From positions 1 through 64,000 of the forward strand of contig NZ_JABDRI010000055.1 of the NCBI RefSeq assembly GCF_013041805.1: a stretch of DNA of 64,000 nucleotides, read 5' to 3'. The notes beneath the pieces were generated by a model. The model worked only from the letters and a program-made list of their open reading frames with translations, was not told the origin of the DNA and made no database searches. This DNA is from Lutibacter sp. (lineage in GTDB: Bacteria > Bacteroidota > Bacteroidia > Flavobacteriales > Flavobacteriaceae). The position numbers and the translations under genes were made by a program. Within the stretch, counting starts at the first letter, position 1. Every line of letters begins with the position of its first letter. Below are positions 51,389 to 61,107 of the stretch, piece after piece.

Positions 51389-53005
51389 TTAATTTATAGA
51401 AACCGCTTGTAAATGTTTAACATTGTCCTTTTTTTCTTTAGATAACTGTACACAAGGGCGCTGAGAGATAATTACAGAAACTCCTTGGTAATTTATTTCC
51501 TCTCGAATAACATTAATGTTTTCCTCTAAATTTTTATGTAATGGTGTTAGTACTTTTAGGTGTTCTTCTTTTACACCAATTCCTTTACAAATAGTTACTA
51601 ATCTACCAGAGGCTGATGAATCTTGAGCTCCGGTCATTGCAATAGCTGAATTATCAGAAATAATAACCGTTATTGGTGTATTTTCAATAACCGCATCTAA
51701 CAAGCCGGTCATTCCAGAATGTGTAAATGTAGAATCCCCAATAACTGCAATCGATGGATGAATACCAGCATCTGAAGCACCTTTTGCCATAGTAATAGAT
51801 GCACCCATATCTATTAAAGTGTTTATACTATTAAAAGGTGGTAAAGCTCCTAATGCATAACAACCAATATCACCAAAAACTTTTTGTGTATTTTGTTCTT
51901 TTCCAAGTTGGTTAATAGCATCAAATAAATCTCTATGACCGCATCCAACACATAATTCTGGTGGTCTGCCAGATACTACTTTTGGAATAGAATCAGTGAC
52001 TTCTACTTTAAACCCTAATGCTTTTTTTATTGAATCAGGATTTAGTTCTCCAACTCGATTTACATGACCGCTTAAACGACCAATTACATTTCTATTTTCA
52101 CCTAAAAAATCTGAGATAATTTCTTCTATAAATGGATAGCCATCTTCTAAAACCAATATTTTTTTACAGGTATCAAATAAATTTTTAATACTAGTTTTTG
52201 GAAGTGGGTATTGTGATATTTTTAAGATAGGGTAAGGGCATTCGCCATCTTCGTAATTTTCCATTAAATAATTATATGCAATACCTGCTGCTATAATTCC
52301 CATCGAAGTATCTTTTCCATCAAAACTTTTATTGAAAGAACTGTTTTCTGAACTCTCACGGCTGTCAGCTTGTATATCAACTAAGTGCTGGTATCTTCCC
52401 CTTGCGTGCATTGGTATGAGTTGAAATTGTGTCGAGTTTAGCGGTAAATGTATCTTATTCTCGGCGATTCTATCTCCAACATTTATTCCAGCTCTTGAGT
52501 GTGATAAACGTGTTACCAAACGAATCATTATTGGCAATCCCATATTTTCTGATAAATCAAAAGCATACTTTGTAATTTCATAGCATTCCTGTTGATTTGA
52601 AGGTTCTAAAATTGGAATCATTGCAAATCTACCATAGTACCGCGAGTCTTGTTCATTTTGTGATGAATGCATTGAAGGATCATCAGCAACAACAACAACT
52701 AATCCTCCGTTTATTCCTGATACTGACATGTTCATAAATACATCTGCAGCAACATTTAAACCTACGTGTTTCATAACGGTCATGGCTCTTTTACCAGCGT
52801 ATGACATACCTAAAGCAGCCTCCATTGCAGTTTTTTCATTGACTGACCATTGAGAATGAATGTTTAATTCTTTGGCAGTTTTTGAGCGTTGTATATATTC
52901 GGTAATTTCAGTTGAAGGTGTGCCTGGATATGCATAAACGCCTGATATTCCCGCATCTATTGCTCCTTGTGCTAAAGCTTCATTACCTAGTAGAAGTTTT
53001 TTCAT
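51389..53005 (-). CDS. iorA: Indolepyruvate ferredoxin oxidoreductase alpha subunit, short form
   Basis: 538 residues. The N-terminal POR domain (GNEALAQGAIDAGISGVYAYPGTPS split) is followed by a TPP-binding domain with CVGCGHRDLF, GDIGCYALGALPP and VIGDSTFTHSGMTGL (TPP/Mg Asp). Archaeal IorA carries a C-terminal pair of 4Fe-4S motifs; this protein ends soon after SQRPCVQLSKEKK and has no CxxCxxC set there. Electrons must leave by another route or acceptor (inference). The gene heads the iorA-iorB-ACD operon. A perfect LacI-type palindrome lies 45 bp upstream. Confidence 0.92.
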   Translation of the reverse strand: MKKLLLGNEALAQGAIDAGISGVYAYPGTPSTEITEYIQRSKTAKELNIHSQWSVNEKTAMEAALGMSYAGKRAMTVMKHVGLNVAADVFMNMSVSGINGGLVVVVADDPSMHSSQNEQDSRYYGRFAMIPILEPSNQQECYEITKYAFDLSENMGLPIMIRLVTRLSHSRAGINVGDRIAENKIHLPLNSTQFQLIPMHARGRYQHLVDIQADSRESSENSSFNKSFDGKDTSMGIIAAGIAYNYLMENYEDGECPYPILKISQYPLPKTSIKNLFDTCKKILVLEDGYPFIEEIISDFLGENRNVIGRLSGHVNRVGELNPDSIKKALGFKVEVTDSIPKVVSGRPPELCVGCGHRDLFDAINQLGKEQNTQKVFGDIGCYALGALPPFNSINTLIDMGASITMAKGASDAGIHPSIAVIGDSTFTHSGMTGLLDAVIENTPITVIISDNSAIAMTGAQDSSASGRLVTICKGIGVKEEHLKVLTPLHKNLEENINVIREEINYQGVSVIISQRPCVQLSKEKKDNVKHLQAVSIN

Positions 53006-53049
53006 GAAATTCTAATTTAATATTTGTTTTATTAATGCTGTAAAATTAT

Positions 53050-53061
53050 GAAAACGTTTTC
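53050..53061. promoter_or_regulatory. GAAAACGTTTTC palindrome upstream of iorA
   Basis: A perfect 12-bp palindrome with central CG, 45 bp from the iorA start. Central-CG palindromes of this kind are typical operators of LacI/GalR-type repressors. No such regulator is encoded in the window. Confidence 0.4.
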
Positions 53062-53237
53062 GTATTTAGAATGACCAAAATCATACTTTTGAAGCTTAAT
53101 AAATTGAAAAACAGAATATTAAATATGCAATAAATGCAATAAAGAATTGATTAATTTACTGGAAATAGGATATTTTATTTGATGGATTTATAGTAAAATG
53201 AGTAAGAATTTAAGTATTCTACATTTTTAGTGTCGAA

Positions 53238-53789
53238 CTAATCGTTATCCCAACTATTTTTAGCTCGTATATTTTTATATAATTTAACACCGAGCATTAA
53301 TAAAACTGAAACTCCAACTATGCCAAGCACACCAAAAATCCATCCAAAAGATGTTTTAAGAACAACCAAAAATACACAAGCAAATAAAATGATGGTAGCA
53401 ACCTCGTTCCAAATTCTTAAGGCAAAAGAAGAATAATTGAGATGTCCTTTTTCAATTTGGTTATATAAAACTTGACAAGACCAATGATAGATAAAAAGTG
53501 CTGCAACAAACCCTAATTTAATTAGCATCCAATTTTGTTGAAGCCAACCTGGTTGCAATATTAAAAGCCAAATGGCAAATAGTGTAGCTAAAACTGCTGA
53601 AGGCCAAGTAATTATATACCAAAGCCTTTTTATCATTAATTTATACTGTTTTAATAGAATATTTTTTTCTATTTCAATTTTTTCTTGAGCCTCCTTATAG
53701 TAAATAAAAAGACGAATGATATAAAAAAGTCCAGCAAACCAAGTAGTTATAAAAATTATGTGAAGCGATTTTATGTATAAATAATCCAT
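53238..53789 (-). CDS. hemJ: HemJ-like protoporphyrinogen IX oxidase (CopD/UPF0093 family)
   Basis: 183 residues with five membrane helices. The N-terminal YIKSLHIIFITTWFAGLFYI matches the HemJ pattern (H..f...W.agl.y..RLf.Y), with the conserved His10 and following Arg/Tyr. Lys and Arg of the LLKQYKLMIKRLW loop are also typical. HemJ oxidises protoporphyrinogen IX to protoporphyrin IX at the membrane. Automatic annotation often says CopD family protein. It lies 2 bp downstream of hemH in the minus-strand AraC-hemH-hemJ unit, exactly the missing step of the locus. Confidence 0.88.
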   Translation of the reverse strand: MDYLYIKSLHIIFITTWFAGLFYIIRLFIYYKEAQEKIEIEKNILLKQYKLMIKRLWYIITWPSAVLATLFAIWLLILQPGWLQQNWMLIKLGFVAALFIYHWSCQVLYNQIEKGHLNYSSFALRIWNEVATIILFACVFLVVLKTSFGWIFGVLGIVGVSVLLMLGVKLYKNIRAKNSWDND

Positions 53790-53791
53790 AA

Positions 53792-54811
53792 TTATTTAGT
53801 TTGAGCCCAATCATTAATCCATTTTGCTACTGTTTTTACCCAATTTTCATCATCATTTAAGCAGGGGATTGTGTTAAACTTTTCTCCACCATTTTCAATG
53901 AACGATTCTTTAGCTTCCATACCTATTTCTTCTAAAGTCTCAAGGCAATCCGAAACAAAAGCAGGTGTTACAACTGCTAAATTTTTAGTTCCATTTTGGG
54001 CAAAAGTATCAATAGTTTTGTCTGTATATGGCTGTAGCCAAGGATCTCTACCTAATCGAGATTGAAAAGAAGTGCTATACGTTCCTTCCTCTAAATTTAA
54101 GTGTTTTGCAACTAATTTGGTGGTTTCATAGCATTGATGTCTATAACAAAATTCATGTGCAGGTGAAGGTGTGTTACAACAACTTCCATCTATTTTGCAG
54201 TGAGATTTTGTAATGTCAGACTTTTTAATATGTCGTTCAGGAACTCCGTGATATGAAAATAATAGATGATCAGGTTTTATTTTATCTAATTCATTTTTAA
54301 TAGAATGACTTAGGGCCTCTACATAAGATGTATTATTATAAAATGCAGGAAAATCGGTTAGCTTAATAGATGGGAATTCCTTTTTAATAATTTCATTCGC
54401 TAAAACAACAATTGTTTCAGTAGTTGCCATTGCAAATTGCGGATATAATGGAATCAAAAATATTTCAGAAACTCCTTGTTTAGCTAATTTTTCAATTCCA
54501 CTTTTAATTGAGGGTTTTCCATAACGCATTGCCAATTCAACTGGTATATCTGAATTTTCTTGTACTTTTTTATGTAATCGTTCAGACAAAACTATGAGTG
54601 GTGATCCTTCTTTCCACCATATTTTTTTATAGGCAGCCGCAGATTTTTTTGGGCGTGTATTTAAAATAATTCCTTTTACTAGAAAAGTTCTTAACAAATA
54701 TGGTACATCAATGACTCTTTCATCCATTAAAAATTCACCTAAATAATTTTTTACATCTTTTGTTGATGTGCTATTTGGTGAACCTAAGTTTACTAATAAT
54801 GCTCCTTTCAT
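53792..54811 (-). CDS. hemH: Ferrochelatase
   Basis: 339 residues, typical for bacterial ferrochelatase, which inserts Fe2+ into protoporphyrin IX. Visible: ALLVNLGSPNS start, MRYGKPSIKSG, LFSYHGVPERH (catalytic His), FQSRLGRDPWLQPYTD and the C-terminal PAFVSDCLETLEEI. A Cys-rich stretch (CKIDGSCCNTPSPAHEFCY) follows the active-site His; whether it binds a cluster is not clear. It is 3 bp after the AraC-type regulator and 2 bp before hemJ. Confidence 0.96.
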   Translation of the reverse strand: MKGALLVNLGSPNSTSTKDVKNYLGEFLMDERVIDVPYLLRTFLVKGIILNTRPKKSAAAYKKIWWKEGSPLIVLSERLHKKVQENSDIPVELAMRYGKPSIKSGIEKLAKQGVSEIFLIPLYPQFAMATTETIVVLANEIIKKEFPSIKLTDFPAFYNNTSYVEALSHSIKNELDKIKPDHLLFSYHGVPERHIKKSDITKSHCKIDGSCCNTPSPAHEFCYRHQCYETTKLVAKHLNLEEGTYSTSFQSRLGRDPWLQPYTDKTIDTFAQNGTKNLAVVTPAFVSDCLETLEEIGMEAKESFIENGGEKFNTIPCLNDDENWVKTVAKWINDWAQTK

Positions 54812-54814
54812 ATT

Positions 54815-55711
54815 TTATGATTTTGAAAATTGTTTTGGGGTTATTCCGTATTTTCTTTTAAACGCTGCAATAAAATGACTTGAAGTGCTGTAGCCAAGTT
54901 GTAAAGCAATTTCATTTACGTTTAGTTGTTGTTCTAATAAAAGTTGTTTTCCTAGTTCCATTTTATAATTAAGTAAAAATGTAAAAACAGGAACACCGTA
55001 CACTTCTTTAAATTCAGATTTTAATTTTTTAATATTTAATCCAACTTCTTTAGCTAATTCAGCTAGGGAAGGAGGGTTAATCATTTCTTTTATAATAAGT
55101 TGTTTAGCATGTTTAATTTTGCTAATTGTTTCTTCGTTAGCGATATAAGGGCAAGATTCACTGTTGTTATCAGTGGTAGTAGTGCTAAAGTAATAACTTA
55201 ATAATTCGTACACTTTTCCTTTGATAAAAATGGGTCTTAAAACCTCGTTTGTTTGTCTTGTAGTTATTTGGTTTAAAATTAATTTAATAGTTGAATTAAT
55301 TTCTTTCGCCTCAATAATAGGGTTTTCTCCTTTTAAACTGTTGTACTTAAATAAAAGATTTCCATCAATTGAAAATAAAGAATGAAAATATTCTAACGAA
55401 ATAAGAATAACAATTAATTCAGATTGTGGAGGTACATTAAAAAGAAGATTCATATGTTCATCTTTAAAGTAAACCATATTAGAATTATTTGCAGTTAAAT
55501 TTACGGCACAATGCTCAAAATTAAACGCAACTTTACTTTGGTTGGTAATTGGGAAATATAAATGAATGCAATTTTTTGTTATAGGGTATTGGTATAGTTC
55601 TGAATTAGATGATAAGTTGTTGAAATGAAACACTTTAAAAGTATTATTCTCATCAAAAATCTTCTGAGTACTTTTGTCGATATTTTTATAATTTTCTAGA
55701 GAGGATTTCAT
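54815..55711 (-). CDS. AraC-family transcriptional regulator of the haem locus
   Basis: 298 residues. The N-terminal region (about 1-190) is a cupin-like or unidentified sensing domain; the C-terminal AraC HTH (about 205-298) has SLAELAKEVGLNIKKLKSEF and LQLGYSTSSHFIAAFKRKYG as the two HTH units, then ITPKQF. It is first in the hemH-hemJ transcript and divergent from hemA. Its own 5' end contains one copy of the 15-bp repeat AGTACTTTTGTCGAT (55667-55681) found upstream of hemA. It is likely to control both arms, perhaps by sensing a porphyrin, haem or iron cue (inference). Confidence 0.9.
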   Translation of the reverse strand: MKSSLENYKNIDKSTQKIFDENNTFKVFHFNNLSSNSELYQYPITKNCIHLYFPITNQSKVAFNFEHCAVNLTANNSNMVYFKDEHMNLLFNVPPQSELIVILISLEYFHSLFSIDGNLLFKYNSLKGENPIIEAKEINSTIKLILNQITTRQTNEVLRPIFIKGKVYELLSYYFSTTTTDNNSESCPYIANEETISKIKHAKQLIIKEMINPPSLAELAKEVGLNIKKLKSEFKEVYGVPVFTFLLNYKMELGKQLLLEQQLNVNEIALQLGYSTSSHFIAAFKRKYGITPKQFSKS

Positions 55712-55746
55712 AAGATACTTTTATAGTTAAAAATTAAAAAGTAGAG

Positions 55747-55773
55747 CAAAAGTAGTATTTATTATGATAACAA
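55747..55773 (-). promoter_or_regulatory. Promoter of AraC-hemH-hemJ operon
   Basis: On the minus strand TTG (55773-55771), 16 bp, then TACTTTTG (55754-55747), close to the Bacteroidota consensus although the spacer is one base short of the usual range. Predicted leader about 30 bp. Confidence 0.5.
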
Positions 55774-55829
55774 AAAAATTAAAAAAAATTAAAATATGAT
55801 ATTTGTCATAGGGTCAACTAGTTATTTTT

Positions 55830-55845
55830 ACTGACATATGTCAGT
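55830..55845. promoter_or_regulatory. Perfect 16-bp palindrome in haem control region
   Basis: ACTGACATATGTCAGT, a perfect palindrome in the AraC/hemA intergenic region, with no T-run. It is a candidate binding site for a dimeric regulator. Confidence 0.5.
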
Positions 55846-55861
55846 TTTAGTTATGAAATTT

Positions 55862-55886
55862 GTTATTTAGAAATATTCTAAATAAC
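55862..55886. promoter_or_regulatory. 11-3-11 inverted repeat, PerR/Fur-like, upstream of hemA
   Basis: GTTATTTAGAA, spacer ATA, TTCTAAATAAC, with no mismatch. The core TTAGAAATATTCTAA (55867-55881) matches 11 of 14 fixed positions of the 15-bp PerR-type box TTATAATnATTATAA. A further inverted pair, ACTAGTTATTT at 55817-55827 and AAATAACTAGT at 55880-55890, spans the region. Confidence 0.5.
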
Positions 55887-55912
55887 TAGTAGTAACTTAT
55901 GTCGATAATAAA

Positions 55913-55962
55913 AGTACTTTTGTCGATGTTTACTAATCGAATATATTAGTACTTTTGACGAT
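55913..55962 (+). repeat. Direct repeats AGTACTTTTGtCGAT upstream of hemA
   Basis: AGTACTTTTGTCGAT at 55913-55927 and AGTACTTTTGACGAT at 55948-55962 (one mismatch), period 35 bp. A third exact copy lies at 55667-55681 inside the 5' end of the AraC gene, and a degenerate copy (AGTAACTTATGTCGAT) at 55891-55906. Each contains TACTTTTG, which fits the -7 box, but the shared TCGAT tail goes beyond any promoter consensus, so AraC operator half-sites are plausible. Confidence 0.6.
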
Positions 55963-55985
55963 ACTTATTGGTAATACCATTTATT

Positions 55986-57251
55986 ATGAATCAAGAAGAA
56001 ATGTCTACAAAGTTTTACAATGTAGGCTTAAGTTATAAAAAAGCAGATGCAAAAGTGCGTGGTGCTTTTAGCATAACAAAAGAAAATCAGAAATTATTAC
56101 TAGAAGAGGCAAAATCCAAGGGTATTGAAGGTGTTTTTGTGTTGTCTACTTGTAATAGAACTGAAATTACAGGTTTTGCAAAGCATCCATTTGAGCTTAT
56201 AACTTTATTGGTTCAATATTCAAATGGAACTGTTGAAGATTTTATTAATGTATCTAATGTTTACAAAAATAAGGATGCTGTAAAGCATTTATTTTATATA
56301 GCAACAGGTTTAGAAAGTCAAATTTTAGGTGATTACGAAATTGTAGGTCAATTAAAAGAGGCTTTTAGGTTAGCAAAAGAAGTTGGTACTACAAATGCGT
56401 ATATAGAGCGTTTGATGAATTTGGTATTACAAGCAAGTAAAGATGTAAAAAATAATACAAAATTAAGTTCTGGAACAACTTCAGTTTCCTATGCTGCGAT
56501 ACAGTATTTGTTAGAGAATGTTGAGGGATATGATAAAAAAAATATTCTTATATATGGTTTAGGTGATATAGGTAAAAACACTTGTAAGAATGTGTTAGAA
56601 TACACCTCAAATAAAATGATATCTTTAGTTAATAGAACAAAAGAAACGGCAATATCATTTAAAGATAGTCACCCAGAAGTTACTGTTGTAGATTATCAAG
56701 ATTTGACTTCGAAAATTGAAGAATCAGATATTTTAATAGTTTCAACAGGAGCTGTTGTTCCAACTGTGACAAAATCTGATGTTGCGAATAATAAAAAACT
56801 TCTAATCCTGGATTTGTCAATGCCAGAAAATGTTGACGCTTCAGTTCAAGAAATTGAAGGTGTAACACTTATAAATGTTGATGAACTATCTAGAATAACT
56901 GATAAAACACTTGAAACTCGTAAAAACGAAATTCCGGAAGCTGAAAAAATAATTAACAAGTACAAGCAAGAATTTAATGAATGGATTTCTCTTCGTAAAT
57001 TTGTACCTGCTGTAAATGCTTTAAAAGAAACACTTCAGGTCATCCAAAATGAAGAAATTGATTTTCAATCAAAAAAAATAAAAGACTTTAATGTTGAACA
57101 AGCTGAGGTGATATCATCTCGTTTAATTCAAAAAATTACTACACAATTTGTGAAACATTTAAAAGATGAAGATACGTCGGTTGATCAAAGTATAAATGTT
57201 ATCAGCAAAATGTTTAATATTAAAGAAATGGTTTTAAATGAGAACAATTAA
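55986..57251 (+). CDS. hemA: Glutamyl-tRNA reductase
   Basis: 421 residues from the ATG at 55986; an ATG five codons later is also possible, and a TTG at 55968 lies among the control elements and is rejected. HemA reduces glutamyl-tRNA to glutamate-1-semialdehyde, the committed step of the C5 haem pathway. The catalytic Cys56 is in VLSTCNRTEI. The NADPH domain has YGLGDIGKNTCKN, and SLVNRTKETA follows. The C-terminal dimerisation helix is present. It heads the hemA-hemCD-hemB-hemL-hemE-hemN run and its end overlaps hemC by 14 bp. Confidence 0.96.
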   Translation: MNQEEMSTKFYNVGLSYKKADAKVRGAFSITKENQKLLLEEAKSKGIEGVFVLSTCNRTEITGFAKHPFELITLLVQYSNGTVEDFINVSNVYKNKDAVKHLFYIATGLESQILGDYEIVGQLKEAFRLAKEVGTTNAYIERLMNLVLQASKDVKNNTKLSSGTTSVSYAAIQYLLENVEGYDKKNILIYGLGDIGKNTCKNVLEYTSNKMISLVNRTKETAISFKDSHPEVTVVDYQDLTSKIEESDILIVSTGAVVPTVTKSDVANNKKLLILDLSMPENVDASVQEIEGVTLINVDELSRITDKTLETRKNEIPEAEKIINKYKQEFNEWISLRKFVPAVNALKETLQVIQNEEIDFQSKKIKDFNVEQAEVISSRLIQKITTQFVKHLKDEDTSVDQSINVISKMFNIKEMVLNENN

Positions 57252-58824
57252 AATAGGGACAAGATCAAGTGAACTTGCGATGTGGCAAGCAAATACCGTC
57301 TCAGGTCAGCTAGAGCATTTAGGATTTAAAACTGAAATTATAAAAATTGATTCTGTTGGAGATATTGTTCTTGACAAGCCATTATATGAATTAGGAATTA
57401 CCGGTGTTTTTACAAAAAATCTAGATATTGCACTGCTAAATAATCAAATTGATATTGCAGTGCACTCTTTTAAAGATGTACCTACAAAATTACCAGAGGG
57501 TATAGTTCAAGCGGCCATTTTAAAGCGAGGTGATTTTAATGATGTTTTAGTCATTAAAGAAGATGAGAATTTCTTCACGCGCGAGACTGCTATTATTGCC
57601 ACTGGAAGTTTGCGAAGAAAAGCACAATGGTTATATCGTTATCCACACCATTCAATTACTGGTTTACGTGGAAATGTAAATACCCGTTTGCAAAAATTAG
57701 AAGATAATGATTGGGATGGAGCAATTTTTGCAGCAGCAGGTTTAAAAAGATTGAAATTACTACCTCCACAAGAAAAACATATTAAATTAGACTGGATGAT
57801 ACCCGCCCCGGCACAAGGTGCAGTAATGGTTGCAGCTTTAGGTAGCGATGAAGAACTTTTAGAAATTTGTAAACAAATTAATGATGAAAACACAGACATT
57901 TGTGTTGGAATTGAGCGAAAATTTTTACAAGTGCTTGAAGGTGGATGTACAGCTCCAATCGGAGCTTTGGCTATGATTTGGGATGATGTTGTAAAATTTA
58001 AAGGGGTTTTATTTAGTCCTGACGGTAAAAATAAAATTGAATTTTATAAAGAATCACCAATCAATAATATTTCTGACTTGGGTGAATTCGCAGCAAATTA
58101 TATTTTAGAAAGAGGAGGGAAAAAGTTAATGCGTGAAGTAATAACCATTGACAAAGAAATAAATGTTTATGCTACAAAAAATTTATCCTTAGATCAAAAA
58201 AATAGTTTTTCAACTAGTATTGGTGTTGCTATGAGTGATTTTATAACTACAAGAAGCAATCGTTTAAAACCAGTACTTGTTAAAAATCGAATTAAAAATA
58301 TTGTAATTACAAGTCAAAATGCAGTAGATGCTTTAACTGAAAATTTCACGTCCTCTGATTTAAAATTTGAAAATATTTATTGTGTTGGAAGAAGGACAAA
58401 AAGGTTGATAGAAAATAAAATAGGTAAAGTAACACGAATAGAGAATTCAGCAGAAAAATTAGCCAACTATCTTGTTGATAATCTTAATGGAGAAGAAATA
58501 ACTTATTTTTGTGGGAATAAAAGGAGAGATGAGTTACCAACTATTTTATCCAAAAATAACATTTCGGTTAAAGAAATTGAGTGCTATCAAACACAATTAA
58601 CTCCAAGAAAAATAGATCAAAAGTATCAGGGAATACTATTTTTTAGCCCAACAGGAATTGAAAGTTTTTTAAAAGATAATAAATCAACCAATGAAAGTAT
58701 TGCATTTTGTATTGGTCAAACTACAGCATTAGAAGCAAATAAATATTTTAAAAATGTTATCATAGCTGAATCACCTTCAGTTGAGAGTGTTATAAAATCT
58801 GTAAACAACTATTTTCAAGAATAA
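57238..58824 (+). CDS. hemCD: Hydroxymethylbilane synthase / uroporphyrinogen-III synthase fusion
   Basis: 528 residues, too long for HemC alone (about 310). Residues 1-300 are hydroxymethylbilane synthase: IGTRSSELAMWQA, the catalytic Asp loop AVHSFKDVPT, GSLRRKAQW and LEGGCTAPIGA with the dipyrromethane-cofactor Cys237. Residues about 325-528 are HemD: NIVITSQNAVDAL, then IYCVGRRTKRLIE, FCGNKRRDELP, FFSPTGIESF and CIGQTTALEANKY. The two enzymes act consecutively, so fusion would channel unstable hydroxymethylbilane. It overlaps hemA by 14 bp and is followed by hemB after 12 bp. Confidence 0.93.
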   Translation: MRTIKIGTRSSELAMWQANTVSGQLEHLGFKTEIIKIDSVGDIVLDKPLYELGITGVFTKNLDIALLNNQIDIAVHSFKDVPTKLPEGIVQAAILKRGDFNDVLVIKEDENFFTRETAIIATGSLRRKAQWLYRYPHHSITGLRGNVNTRLQKLEDNDWDGAIFAAAGLKRLKLLPPQEKHIKLDWMIPAPAQGAVMVAALGSDEELLEICKQINDENTDICVGIERKFLQVLEGGCTAPIGALAMIWDDVVKFKGVLFSPDGKNKIEFYKESPINNISDLGEFAANYILERGGKKLMREVITIDKEINVYATKNLSLDQKNSFSTSIGVAMSDFITTRSNRLKPVLVKNRIKNIVITSQNAVDALTENFTSSDLKFENIYCVGRRTKRLIENKIGKVTRIENSAEKLANYLVDNLNGEEITYFCGNKRRDELPTILSKNNISVKEIECYQTQLTPRKIDQKYQGILFFSPTGIESFLKDNKSTNESIAFCIGQTTALEANKYFKNVIIAESPSVESVIKSVNNYFQE

Positions 58825-58836
58825 AAAGAATTACCT

Positions 58837-59802
58837 ATGTATAGAACCAGACGATTACGTAAAACTGAAAATATTCGTCGATTAGTTAGAGAGAATAAAT
58901 TAACTATTGACGATTTAATTTATCCGTTGTTTATTGAGGAAGGCGAGAATATCGAAACAGAAATAGTTTCAATGCCTGGAATTAAACGATTTTCTTTAGA
59001 TAGAATTTCAAAGGAATTAGATGAAGTTGTGGCTTTAGATATTCCAGCGGTGTTACTTTTTGGAATTCCTTCGGAAAAAGATGAAGAAGGTTCAGAAACT
59101 TGGAACGATGATGGAATTATGCAGCGAGCTGTTCGTTTTATAAAGAAAAATTATCCGAGTTTATATGTAATTACTGATGTTTGTTTTTGTGAATATACAA
59201 GTCACGGTCATTGTGGAATTATTCATGACAACGACGTTGATAATGATGCTACTCTTCCAAACATAGCCAAACAAGTTATTTCACACGCCAAAGCTGGTGT
59301 AGATATGGTAGCGCCATCAGGTATGATGGACGGTATGATTGAAACAATTAGAGAAGCATTAGATAATACTGGATTTCCAAATTTACCAATTATGTCATAT
59401 GCCGTAAAATATTCTTCGGCATTTTATGGGCCATTTAGAGATGCAGCAGATTCTGCTCCAACCTTTGGAGATAGAAGAACCTATCAAATGGATCCTTCAA
59501 ATAGAGATGAAGGAATGCGCGAAGCAATTTTTGATGATCGAGAAGGAGCCGATATTTTAATGGTAAAACCAGCTCTATCTTATTTGGATATTATTAGAGA
59601 TTTAAAAAACAATTTTGACAGGCCAATCGCTTGCTATAATGTAAGTGGAGAATATGCGATGATTAAGGCCGCAGCAGCAAATGGATGGATTGATGGAGAA
59701 AGAGTAATGATGGAAAGTTTGTTGTCAATGAAAAGAGCAGGAGCAGATATAATTATTACCTATTTTGCTAAAGAAGTAGCAAAATTATTATTGAAAAAAT
59801 AA
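58837..59802 (+). CDS. hemB: Porphobilinogen synthase (ALA dehydratase)
   Basis: 321 residues, normal for HemB, which condenses two 5-aminolevulinate molecules. [15 protein letters not shown] at the start; the zinc-binding [16 protein letters not shown] has all three Cys (C-x-C-x7-C), so this is the zinc-dependent type. The Schiff-base lysines lie in [16 protein letters not shown] and [10 protein letters not shown]. It sits 12 bp after hemCD and 6 bp before hemL. Confidence 0.97.
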
Positions 59803-59808
59803 GATAAA

Positions 59809-61107
59809 ATGAAGTTAGAAAAATCATTAGAATTATATACGAGAGGAAAAAAGCACTTAGTTGGTGCTGTAAATTCGCCGGTTAGAGCTTTTAAATCTGT
59901 TGGAGGAATTCCAATTTTCATTGAAAAAGCAAAAGGAAGCAAAATTTATGACGTAGATGGAAATGAATATATAGATTTTGTGCTTTCATATGGACCTATG
60001 ATTTTAGGTCATAGAAATTCAGTTGTAGAAAAAACAATAAAAAAGTATATGAGAAATGGGTATACTTTTGGGGCTTCTACAAAAGGAGAAATTATTTTAG
60101 CTGAAATGGTTTGTGATGCTTTTCCGGGAATGGATAAAGTTAGATTTGTAAATTCAGGAACGGAAGCGGTATTAAGTGCTATTCGTTTAGCGAGAGCTTA
60201 CACAGGTAAGAATAAAATTATAAAATTTGCGGGTTGCTATCACGGACATTCAGATGCTTTATTGGTAGCTGCTGGTTCAGGTTTGGCAACATTAAGTTTA
60301 CCAGGAAGTAAAGGTGTTCCAGATGATGCAGTGAAGAACACATTAATAGCAGAGTTTAATAATATTGATAGTGTTGAAAAACATTTAGCTGAAAACAAAG
60401 ATGTAGCTGCTGTAATTTTTGAGCCAATTGCTGGAAATATGGGAGTTGTTGAACCAACTAAAGAATTTATTGAAGAACTTAGAGACCTAACTAAAGCAAG
60501 TGGAGTTTTATTAATTGCTGATGAAGTAATGACAGGCTTTCGTTCAAAATTTGGTGGAGCTCAGGAATTGTTAGGAATTCAAGCTGATATTACTTGTTTA
60601 GGAAAAGTTGTTGGTGGAGGCTTTCCAGTTGGAGCTTACGGTGCAAGAAATGAAATTATGGAAATGGTTGCTCCTCTAGGAGAAATGTACCAAGCAGGTA
60701 CGTTGTCTGGAAATCCAATTGCGATGAGTTGTGGAATAGCAACTTTAAAGGAGTTGCAAAAAAGAGATCCGTATAAAGATTTTGAAAAAACAGCTGCTTT
60801 TTTGGAGCGTTCTTTAAAAGCTGCAGCAAAAGAAAATGGGATCGATTTACAAGTAAATCGATTTGGTTCTATGATAAATGCTTTCTTCACAAAAGAAAAA
60901 GTAGTTGATTTTAAATCAGCTCAAACGAGTGACACTATTAAATTCAAAACATTTTTTTGGAAAATGATGGAGAATGGAGTGTTTTTGCCTCCTTCTCAAT
61001 TTGAAGCTTGGTTTTTAGGAACTGCTATGACAAAAAGAGATATTTATAAAGTGAGATCGGCTATCAATGTTGCAATGAAAGCGGTTGCAGATAAAGAGAA
61101 AAAATAA
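59809..61107 (+). CDS. hemL: Glutamate-1-semialdehyde 2,1-aminomutase
   Basis: 432 residues, a class III PLP aminotransferase fold. It converts glutamate-1-semialdehyde to 5-aminolevulinate. Motifs: NSPVRAFKSVGG, VNSGTEAVLSAIRLAR, CYHGHSD, LLIADEVMTGFR and the PLP-lysine in LGKVVGGGFPVGAYG. It is cytoplasmic and works with HemA, whose product is labile. It lies between hemB and hemE. Confidence 0.97.
   Translation: MKLEKSLELYTRGKKHLVGAVNSPVRAFKSVGGIPIFIEKAKGSKIYDVDGNEYIDFVLSYGPMILGHRNSVVEKTIKKYMRNGYTFGASTKGEIILAEMVCDAFPGMDKVRFVNSGTEAVLSAIRLARAYTGKNKIIKFAGCYHGHSDALLVAAGSGLATLSLPGSKGVPDDAVKNTLIAEFNNIDSVEKHLAENKDVAAVIFEPIAGNMGVVEPTKEFIEELRDLTKASGVLLIADEVMTGFRSKFGGAQELLGIQADITCLGKVVGGGFPVGAYGARNEIMEMVAPLGEMYQAGTLSGNPIAMSCGIATLKELQKRDPYKDFEKTAAFLERSLKAAAKENGIDLQVNRFGSMINAFFTKEKVVDFKSAQTSDTIKFKTFFWKMMENGVFLPPSQFEAWFLGTAMTKRDIYKVRSAINVAMKAVADKEKK

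Follow-up and report, generated by a model that had tools for sequence, protein, structure and literature searches.

Between the gene for an AraC-family regulator and the divergent heme-synthesis gene hemA of a Lutibacter sp., a 15-base word recurs, and one copy lies within the regulator's own coding sequence. Are these copies operators, which protein would bind them, and what would binding do to hemA? The window, that is, the whole stretch of DNA analysed, covers 64,000 nucleotides (positions 1 to 64,000 of contig NZ_JABDRI010000055.1), and its locus of interest has araC-hemH-hemJ divergent from hemA-hemCD-hemB, with these central genes:

54815..55711, minus strand: araC-family regulator gene, 298 aa; HTH_18 and HTH_AraC above cut-off, with a predicted all-beta part (17-137) and a predicted helical DNA-binding part (193-298).
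55986..57251, plus strand: hemA, glutamyl-tRNA reductase; GlutR_N and GlutR_dimer matches.
53792..54811, minus strand: hemH, ferrochelatase, downstream of araC; profile match.
53238..53789, minus strand: hemJ-like gene (UPF0093), which we take to encode HemJ; UPF0093 profile match.

Downstream of hemA lie hemC and hemD, fused into a single reading frame (window positions 57238-58824), hemB, and an aminotransferase gene that is presumably hemL. The order hemC-hemA-araC-hemH is kept in all 20 named loci (L088-L107; labelled mostly Lutibacter, with two Wenyingzhuangia and a few unplaced flavobacteria). An Rfam scan of 52000-60000 returned nothing at the gathering threshold.

The first-pass annotation had reported two exact copies of the word, one copy with a single change and one degenerate copy, and all four coordinates were confirmed. 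AGTACTTTTGTCGAT occurs exactly at 55667-55681 and 55913-55927 and with one change at 55948-55962, and the degenerate copy AGTAACTTATGTCGAT at 55891-55906. We refer to the copy within araC as R0, to the degenerate copy as R1 and to the promoter-side copies as R2 and R3:

55667..55681, plus strand: R0, in-gene half-site at araC codons 11-15; exact copy with synonymous-site constraint, spanning -295 to -281 relative to the hemA start as inferred.
55891..55906, plus strand: R1, the degenerate half-site, spanning -71 to -56 on the same scale; its core precedes the R2 core by 21 bp.
55913..55927, plus strand: R2, main half-site, spanning -49 to -35 on that scale; self-trained matrix, 158 of 159 loci.
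55948..55962, plus strand: R3, half-site overlying the hemA -7 box and start; all 35 Lutibacter loci have its tail, as do 14 of the 124 others.

The same annotation had judged an identity of 15 bases unlikely by chance in so small a region, and this was borne out. The longest exact direct repeat within 55640-55985 is 15 nt, a length reached by only 2 of 2000 dinucleotide shuffles of this segment (mean 9.3), and three copies within one mismatch appeared in none of 40 shuffles (best 2); a chance repeat is thereby ruled out. Over the whole window, with 3 mismatches allowed, 5 matches are not unusual (shuffle mean 3.0; at least 5 in 17 of 100 shuffles). What carries the signal is the close clustering of three copies, not the window-wide count. 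In its own genome, GTACTTTTGTCGAT with up to 1 mismatch has 3 matches, all at this locus, and the backwards pattern has 2.

R0 to R3 are recognisable at fixed places across 30 aligned Lutibacter loci. Five added loci brought the sample to 35 of the 38 genus genomes searched, the remaining three being two without a strong match (G004, G015) and one with a partial match (G006). A regulator homologue (E up to 1e-40) was found in 283 of 299 genomes, and among 162 loci picked from the stronger regulator matches, araC and hemA are divergent in 159 (35 Lutibacter and 124 other); L083, L164 and L201, where no hemA was found, were dropped. Relatives that keep this divergence also keep the repeats. A half-site precedes hemA in 158 of the 159 loci, as scored with a position weight matrix trained on these same loci (the anchor in L004 was shifted by hand from R3 to R2), and the in-gene copy exceeds a score threshold of 0, passed also by 28% of synonymous resamplings, in 148, falling below it in the other 11. 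The family form of the half-site is GTTCTTTTAGCGTTATTTTT, given also as AAAAGTTCTTTTAGCGTTATTTTTT, with a nearly invariant CG core, and the Lutibacter word GTACTTTTGTCGAT reads as a local dialect of it. In other families of the order, 23 genomes yielded two strong matches, in G038 and G045; both loci keep the divergence and half-site-like words, and Cys-Pro is present in the protein. L283 has a good in-gene word, in L282 two promoter words are separated by 19 bp instead of 21, and the remaining scores are low. Three genomes have hemA with AraC absent at threshold, and in L331 and L332 the array stands at hemA with the adjacent araC undetected. A wider Lutibacter regulon was considered and rejected: 27 of 35 listed off-locus near-matches fall inside ORFs of at least 70 aa, several of them within one conserved gene, 8 fall outside, and no second target recurs. 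An intergenic copy of the Lutibacter word in a single genome (L128, around 1274), flanked by TACTTTT repeats and upstream of a small ORF, is unexplained.

The promoter-side copies were placed relative to transcription through the flavobacterial promoter. In Flavobacterium psychrophilum, TAnnTTTG is the sigmaA -7 element, situated at -12 to -5 (PMC9723704). The distance of this motif from R2 is identical in all 35 Lutibacter loci and in 119 of the 124 other-genus loci (3 more are one base off), and placing the motif at -12 to -5 puts the hemA start near 55962, from which the positions of R0, R1 and R2 follow. The two promoter boxes of the window are:

55950..55957, plus strand: inferred hemA sigmaA -7 box, TACTTTTG; TAnnTTTG at the exact R2 offset in 154 of 159 loci, start inferred at ~55962.
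55747..55754, minus strand: inferred araC -7 box, TACTTTTG on the minus strand; position kept in most rows of the Lutibacter alignment.

CAAAnnTA is found somewhere in the araC-hemA spacer in 122 of 159 loci. The R1 core, 21 bp upstream of the R2 core, reads CGAYA in 130 and CG in 151 of the 159 loci; direct-repeat half-sites 21 bp apart near a promoter are, from sequence only, as expected of AraC/XylS regulators. The upstream (-33) promoter element follows a TTG rule, and TTG is absent 17-23 nt upstream of the hemA -7 box in 133 of 159 loci. We conclude that R2, the second core 21 bp upstream and the -7 box together match the geometry of AraC class II. R3 looks derived, an elaboration of the Lutibacter side, as judged from the distribution of its tail. 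The signs conflict here: promoter position favours activation, whereas R3 on the -7 box favours repression.

The copy inside araC was assessed against the coding sequence that holds it. Within the first 120 nt of araC, the top-scoring window exceeds 10 in 72% of loci, compared with 6.7% of synonymous resamplings of the same stretches. R0-like scores above 0 occur in 0.2% of 955 other blocks of araC genes and in 4.4% of the same stretches on the opposite strand. At the 147 sites used for codon tests (score above 0, in frame; spacing tests used 146), the core codon is ATC or GTC in 131, where about 12 are expected. In Lutibacter, Ile is encoded by ATC in 34 of 35 cases (2.6 expected); among 112 other-genus sites, GTC accounts for 54 (4.1 expected) and ATC for 43 (5.3 expected), together 97 vs 9.4. 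ATT, ATA, GTT and GTA never occur at this codon (expected about 31 in Lutibacter and 77 in the others). Choosing R0 sites by score biases this codon count, and the bias is small in Lutibacter because all of its R0 sites lie at one position. We conclude that R0 is, by its codon usage, a DNA element under synonymous-site constraint.

What such an element might do is bound up with its distance from the promoter. R0 and R2 are 165-169 bp apart in 93 of 111 other-genus loci and 246-250 bp apart in 33 of 35 Lutibacter loci; the remaining distances are 134, 145-146, 154-155, 244, 247-249 and 260-261 in other genera and 242 and 243 in Lutibacter. Spacer identity between equal-length loci of the short class is 0.37-0.51 (random pairs 0.31), compared with 0.77-0.83 in R2, so spacer length is kept better than spacer sequence. 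This would fit the needs of a DNA loop, and the promoters and palindromes packed into the spacer could also hold its length. The spacing classes share no single 10.5-bp period, and a scan of periods from 9.5 to 12.0 performed best over all loci near 10.2 and 11.6, with relatedness ignored. A jitter test of the helical period (p near 0) was set aside, as it ignores relatedness. The constrained site and tight spacing are no more than suggestive of a loop from R0 to the hemA array, which the first-pass annotation had offered as a negative loop into the regulator gene. R0 may instead act without looping, as a roadblock or through plain autorepression from a site downstream of the araC promoter. 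Its position, some 60-75 nt into the inferred araC transcript, and the lack of a helical period that fits the spacing classes well both speak for such a role, whereas the persistence of 165-169 bp despite low spacer identity speaks against it; we put this alternative somewhat below even odds.

Does the array stand anywhere other than at hemA? The composite R1-R2-(-7 box) pattern, with up to 1 mismatch, was found in 294 of 397 family genomes, once per listed row except for two in G376, and the reversed pattern was found in none of the rows listed. The three Lutibacter genomes in this search did not match the family form. A looser family pattern matched 45 of 60 genomes, with scattered extra matches; the 11 fetched comprised 8 at hemA, 2 inside coding sequence and 1 preceding a TonB receptor. 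We examined 45 composite loci, 30 returned by the search and 15 from 16 hand-picked genomes and hence not a random sample: 38 are at hemA, 5 precede TonB-dependent receptors, 1 is upstream of araC and 1 elsewhere. The match in L328 precedes an unrelated gene, perhaps by chance.

The five genomes with receptor arrays (G075, G245, G280, G293 and G376; 84-95% complete, receptors called by Pfam) gave no GlutR_N (hemA) and no ALAD (hemB) match in profile searches. In G280, araC itself is divergent from a TonB-dependent receptor; in G075, AraC was not found at threshold. The best models for the array-linked receptors are B12, siderophore or 'ligand-gated channel', with heme models close and all far below cut-off. 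Two related receptors (L333 and L337, 48% identical), array-bearing and from two hemA-less genera, are candidate heme receptors; the one in L333 adjoins a DUF6607 gene. ALAD was matched in 4 of 4 genomes with GlutR_N and in 0 of 15 without it (G068, G075, G101, G107, G121, G165, G175, G187, G245, G256, G267, G273, G280, G293, G376), and because both profiles are unmatched, these 15 Flavobacteriaceae, some of them 82-88% complete, look like natural tetrapyrrole auxotrophs.

GlutR_N was unmatched in 27 of 299 genomes (20 named in the search and 7 identified by elimination against the regulator-match list). AraC and GlutR_N are both absent in 13, AraC alone in 3 and GlutR_N alone in 14, with both present in 269 (Fisher P about 5e-13, uncorrected for relatedness and incomplete genomes). 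Such joint absence could stem from the loss of one neighbouring block, from related genomes or from incomplete assemblies. Half of the 14 genomes with AraC and without GlutR_N carry the composite array, the other 7 having none at this stringency; those 7 arrays lie at TonB receptors (3), at another gene (G256), at a contig edge beside araC (G220) or were not located (2). In hemA-less G376, an array is kept upstream of araC (L339, around 1501), with no long same-strand ORF just downstream. Collectively, these patterns give signs that regulator and array have been re-used where heme synthesis is gone.

Three palindromes lie beside the array between araC and hemA, and their class labels (FNR/CRP for A and B; Fur/PerR/Irr or DtxR for C) are our assumption:

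55795..55810, no strand: palindrome A, TATGATATTTGTCATA; FNR/CRP-like by eye, kept with changes in most Lutibacter alignment rows.
55830..55845, no strand: palindrome B, ACTGACATATGTCAGT; FNR/CRP-like by eye, kept in some alignment rows, core recurring elsewhere in the genome.
55863..55885, no strand: palindrome C, TTATTTAGAAATATTCTAAATAA; perhaps an iron-type box, with 12 or more of the 14 arm bases kept in 134 of 159 loci vs 3 of 159 shuffled.

Both A and B are similar to TGACAwwTGTCA. All 7 Lutibacter genomes searched contain TGACATWTGTCA, with 28 sites among the matches listed and 2 for the reversed control. Sites of this type (L250-L273) precede, among others, genes for succinate dehydrogenase-like subunits, a CcoS-like protein, 2-oxoacid:ferredoxin oxidoreductase, ferredoxin, and multiheme or molybdopterin proteins, names that were read off gene-start sequences. 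This suggests that A and B mark an oxygen-linked FNR/CRP-type regulator with a candidate regulon of respiratory and anaerobic-type genes. In F. psychrophilum, heme-synthesis enzymes rise together with cbb3 oxidase under oxygen limitation (PMC9723704). Palindrome C lies close to araC in 93 loci of other genera; 31 Lutibacter loci and 10 others have it near R1 instead. Its exact form (TTTAGAAnnnTTCTAAA) was found at eight sites in five of seven genomes, with five sites in 3 of the 7 for the reversed control; 5 of 7 genomes have it with a spacer of 3 and 0 of 7 with a spacer of 4. One site is at hemA, two precede sufS (in two genomes) and one an FTR1-like permease gene (in one genome), these off-locus sites being in L276, L277 and L280, and four precede genes without a plain iron link. 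Since the reversed control is nearly as frequent and few targets are iron-linked, this is thin evidence for a wider palindrome C regulon, and an iron regulator is only a suggestion.

With these boxes so close, the array might itself be bound by another regulator, FNR/CRP-like, iron-responsive or encoded at an unlinked locus, rather than by the adjacent AraC protein. The palindromes would fit such a scheme, as would the 14 of 283 AraC-bearing genomes in which hemA was undetected. Yet A and B have their own wider target set, whereas the located arrays concentrate at hemA, with receptors second, and direct half-sites at 21-bp spacing are suited to an AraC protein and not to one that binds palindromes. 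We consider another binder improbable. The first-pass proposal that the adjacent AraC protein binds direct half-sites is strongly supported by comparison across genomes, and the inference of binding to the array is a strong one.

Slightly less probable still is that the repeats are for the most part promoter elements, namely tandem -7 boxes of the form TAnnTTTG, and not operators. Part of the identity of R3 is indeed promoter, because TACTTTTG, contained in both R2 and R3, equals the sigmaA -7 consensus, and R3 coincides with the conserved -7 box. But most other-genus R0 and R2 copies read like CTTTTAGCGAC and CTTTTAGCGTT, without TAnnTTTG and with the CG core near-invariant; R0 lies within a gene and points away from it; and Lutibacter keeps a GTCGAT tail for which the -7 consensus has no need. 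That R0 is a mere by-product of a conserved N-terminal peptide, partly conserved as K-N-(I/V)-(D/A)-K-S-(S/T), without any role as DNA is the least probable alternative of all, given the four synonymous codons missing from its core and the 141 of 147 sites that beat at least 95% of their own synonymous resamplings.

Our preferred reading, to which we assign a probability of about 0.77, is that the array is bound by the AraC protein, which activates hemA and acts on its own gene through R0. The repeats would be half-sites for the AraC-family protein encoded next door, a dimer of which would occupy R1 and R2 just upstream of a hemA promoter with a poor -33 element and help RNA polymerase to initiate at hemA, the gene for the committed step of heme synthesis. 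R0 would be recognised by the same protein, which would regulate its own gene in this way and perhaps close a repressing loop to the hemA array, like the loop of AraC with araO2. On the Lutibacter side, the extra site R3 would lie over the -7 box and act in repression; because it covers that box, high occupancy should shut hemA off. The signal would probably be heme or iron-heme status.

The protein itself bears on the signal. It carries a C-terminal double helix-turn-helix (PF12833, 74.5 bits, cut-off 33.6; PF00165, 46.4 bits, cut-off 26.6), and the predicted model (mean pLDDT 69.7) shows an all-beta region, 17-137, with cupin and AraC-family fold matches and no Pfam sensor match. Structure comparison yields the fold class only: ToxT and Rns (AraC/XylS) are the top-ranked fold matches, with poor superposition (TM about 0.3), and share general architecture alone, without a functional link. 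Cys187-Pro188 and His110 are invariant in 159 of 159 proteins. Cys-Pro is found also in the L282, L283 and L335 / G280 proteins, and Cys-Arg in the L339 / G376 protein; in the predicted model Cys-Pro sits in a low-confidence linker, 172-191, between barrel and HTH. Cys-Pro is the classic dipeptide of heme regulatory motifs, and the heme hypothesis follows from this; a structural or redox role may be the alternative. We therefore hold only tentatively, at slightly under even odds, that the AraC protein is a family-wide Flavobacteriaceae heme sensor (Cys187-Pro188, perhaps His110) that drives hemA at heme shortage and was re-used in some lineages for TonB-dependent heme receptors where synthesis was lost. 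If so, the array would mark unknown heme receptors of natural heme auxotrophs.

The repeats are thus real, and the finding is larger than first noted, with promoter geometry, palindromes for other regulators, a family-wide range and a second target class added. It points to a probable regulator devoted to heme synthesis in a major family of environmental bacteria, with sites precise enough to mutate, and to candidate heme receptors in flavobacteria that lack this synthesis. An operator in the regulator's own codons, in about a hundred genera as counted from the match table, also offers a clear-cut example of a protein constraint and a DNA constraint that overlap.

Among known systems, the separate inputs beside the AraC array look like FNR/CRP-type boxes (palindromes A and B) and Fur/PerR/Irr- or DtxR-type boxes (palindrome C), their proteins being putative. 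Irr, HbrL and HrrA are heme-responsive regulators of heme synthesis, Irr with a Cys-Pro heme motif; the Lutibacter system shares control of hem genes with all three and the Cys-Pro motif with Irr, whereas their protein families are other than AraC. Titles and abstract openings in the open-licence literature yielded no AraC-family regulator of hemA or heme. E. coli AraC with araI1-I2 and araO2, which lie at about -69 to -53, -48 to -32 and -280, is the nearer parallel. For its loop, PMC6018408 gives a separation of about 200 bp. In both systems direct half-sites 21 bp apart immediately precede the promoter, a further half-site lies distally near -280, and the protein combines a barrel with an HTH. 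In contrast to E. coli AraC, the target here is heme synthesis, the distal site is embedded in the regulator's coding sequence, Lutibacter has a third site over the -7 box, and the probable ligand is no sugar. Mechanisms of this class are known; the system itself, like its targets, appears to be new.
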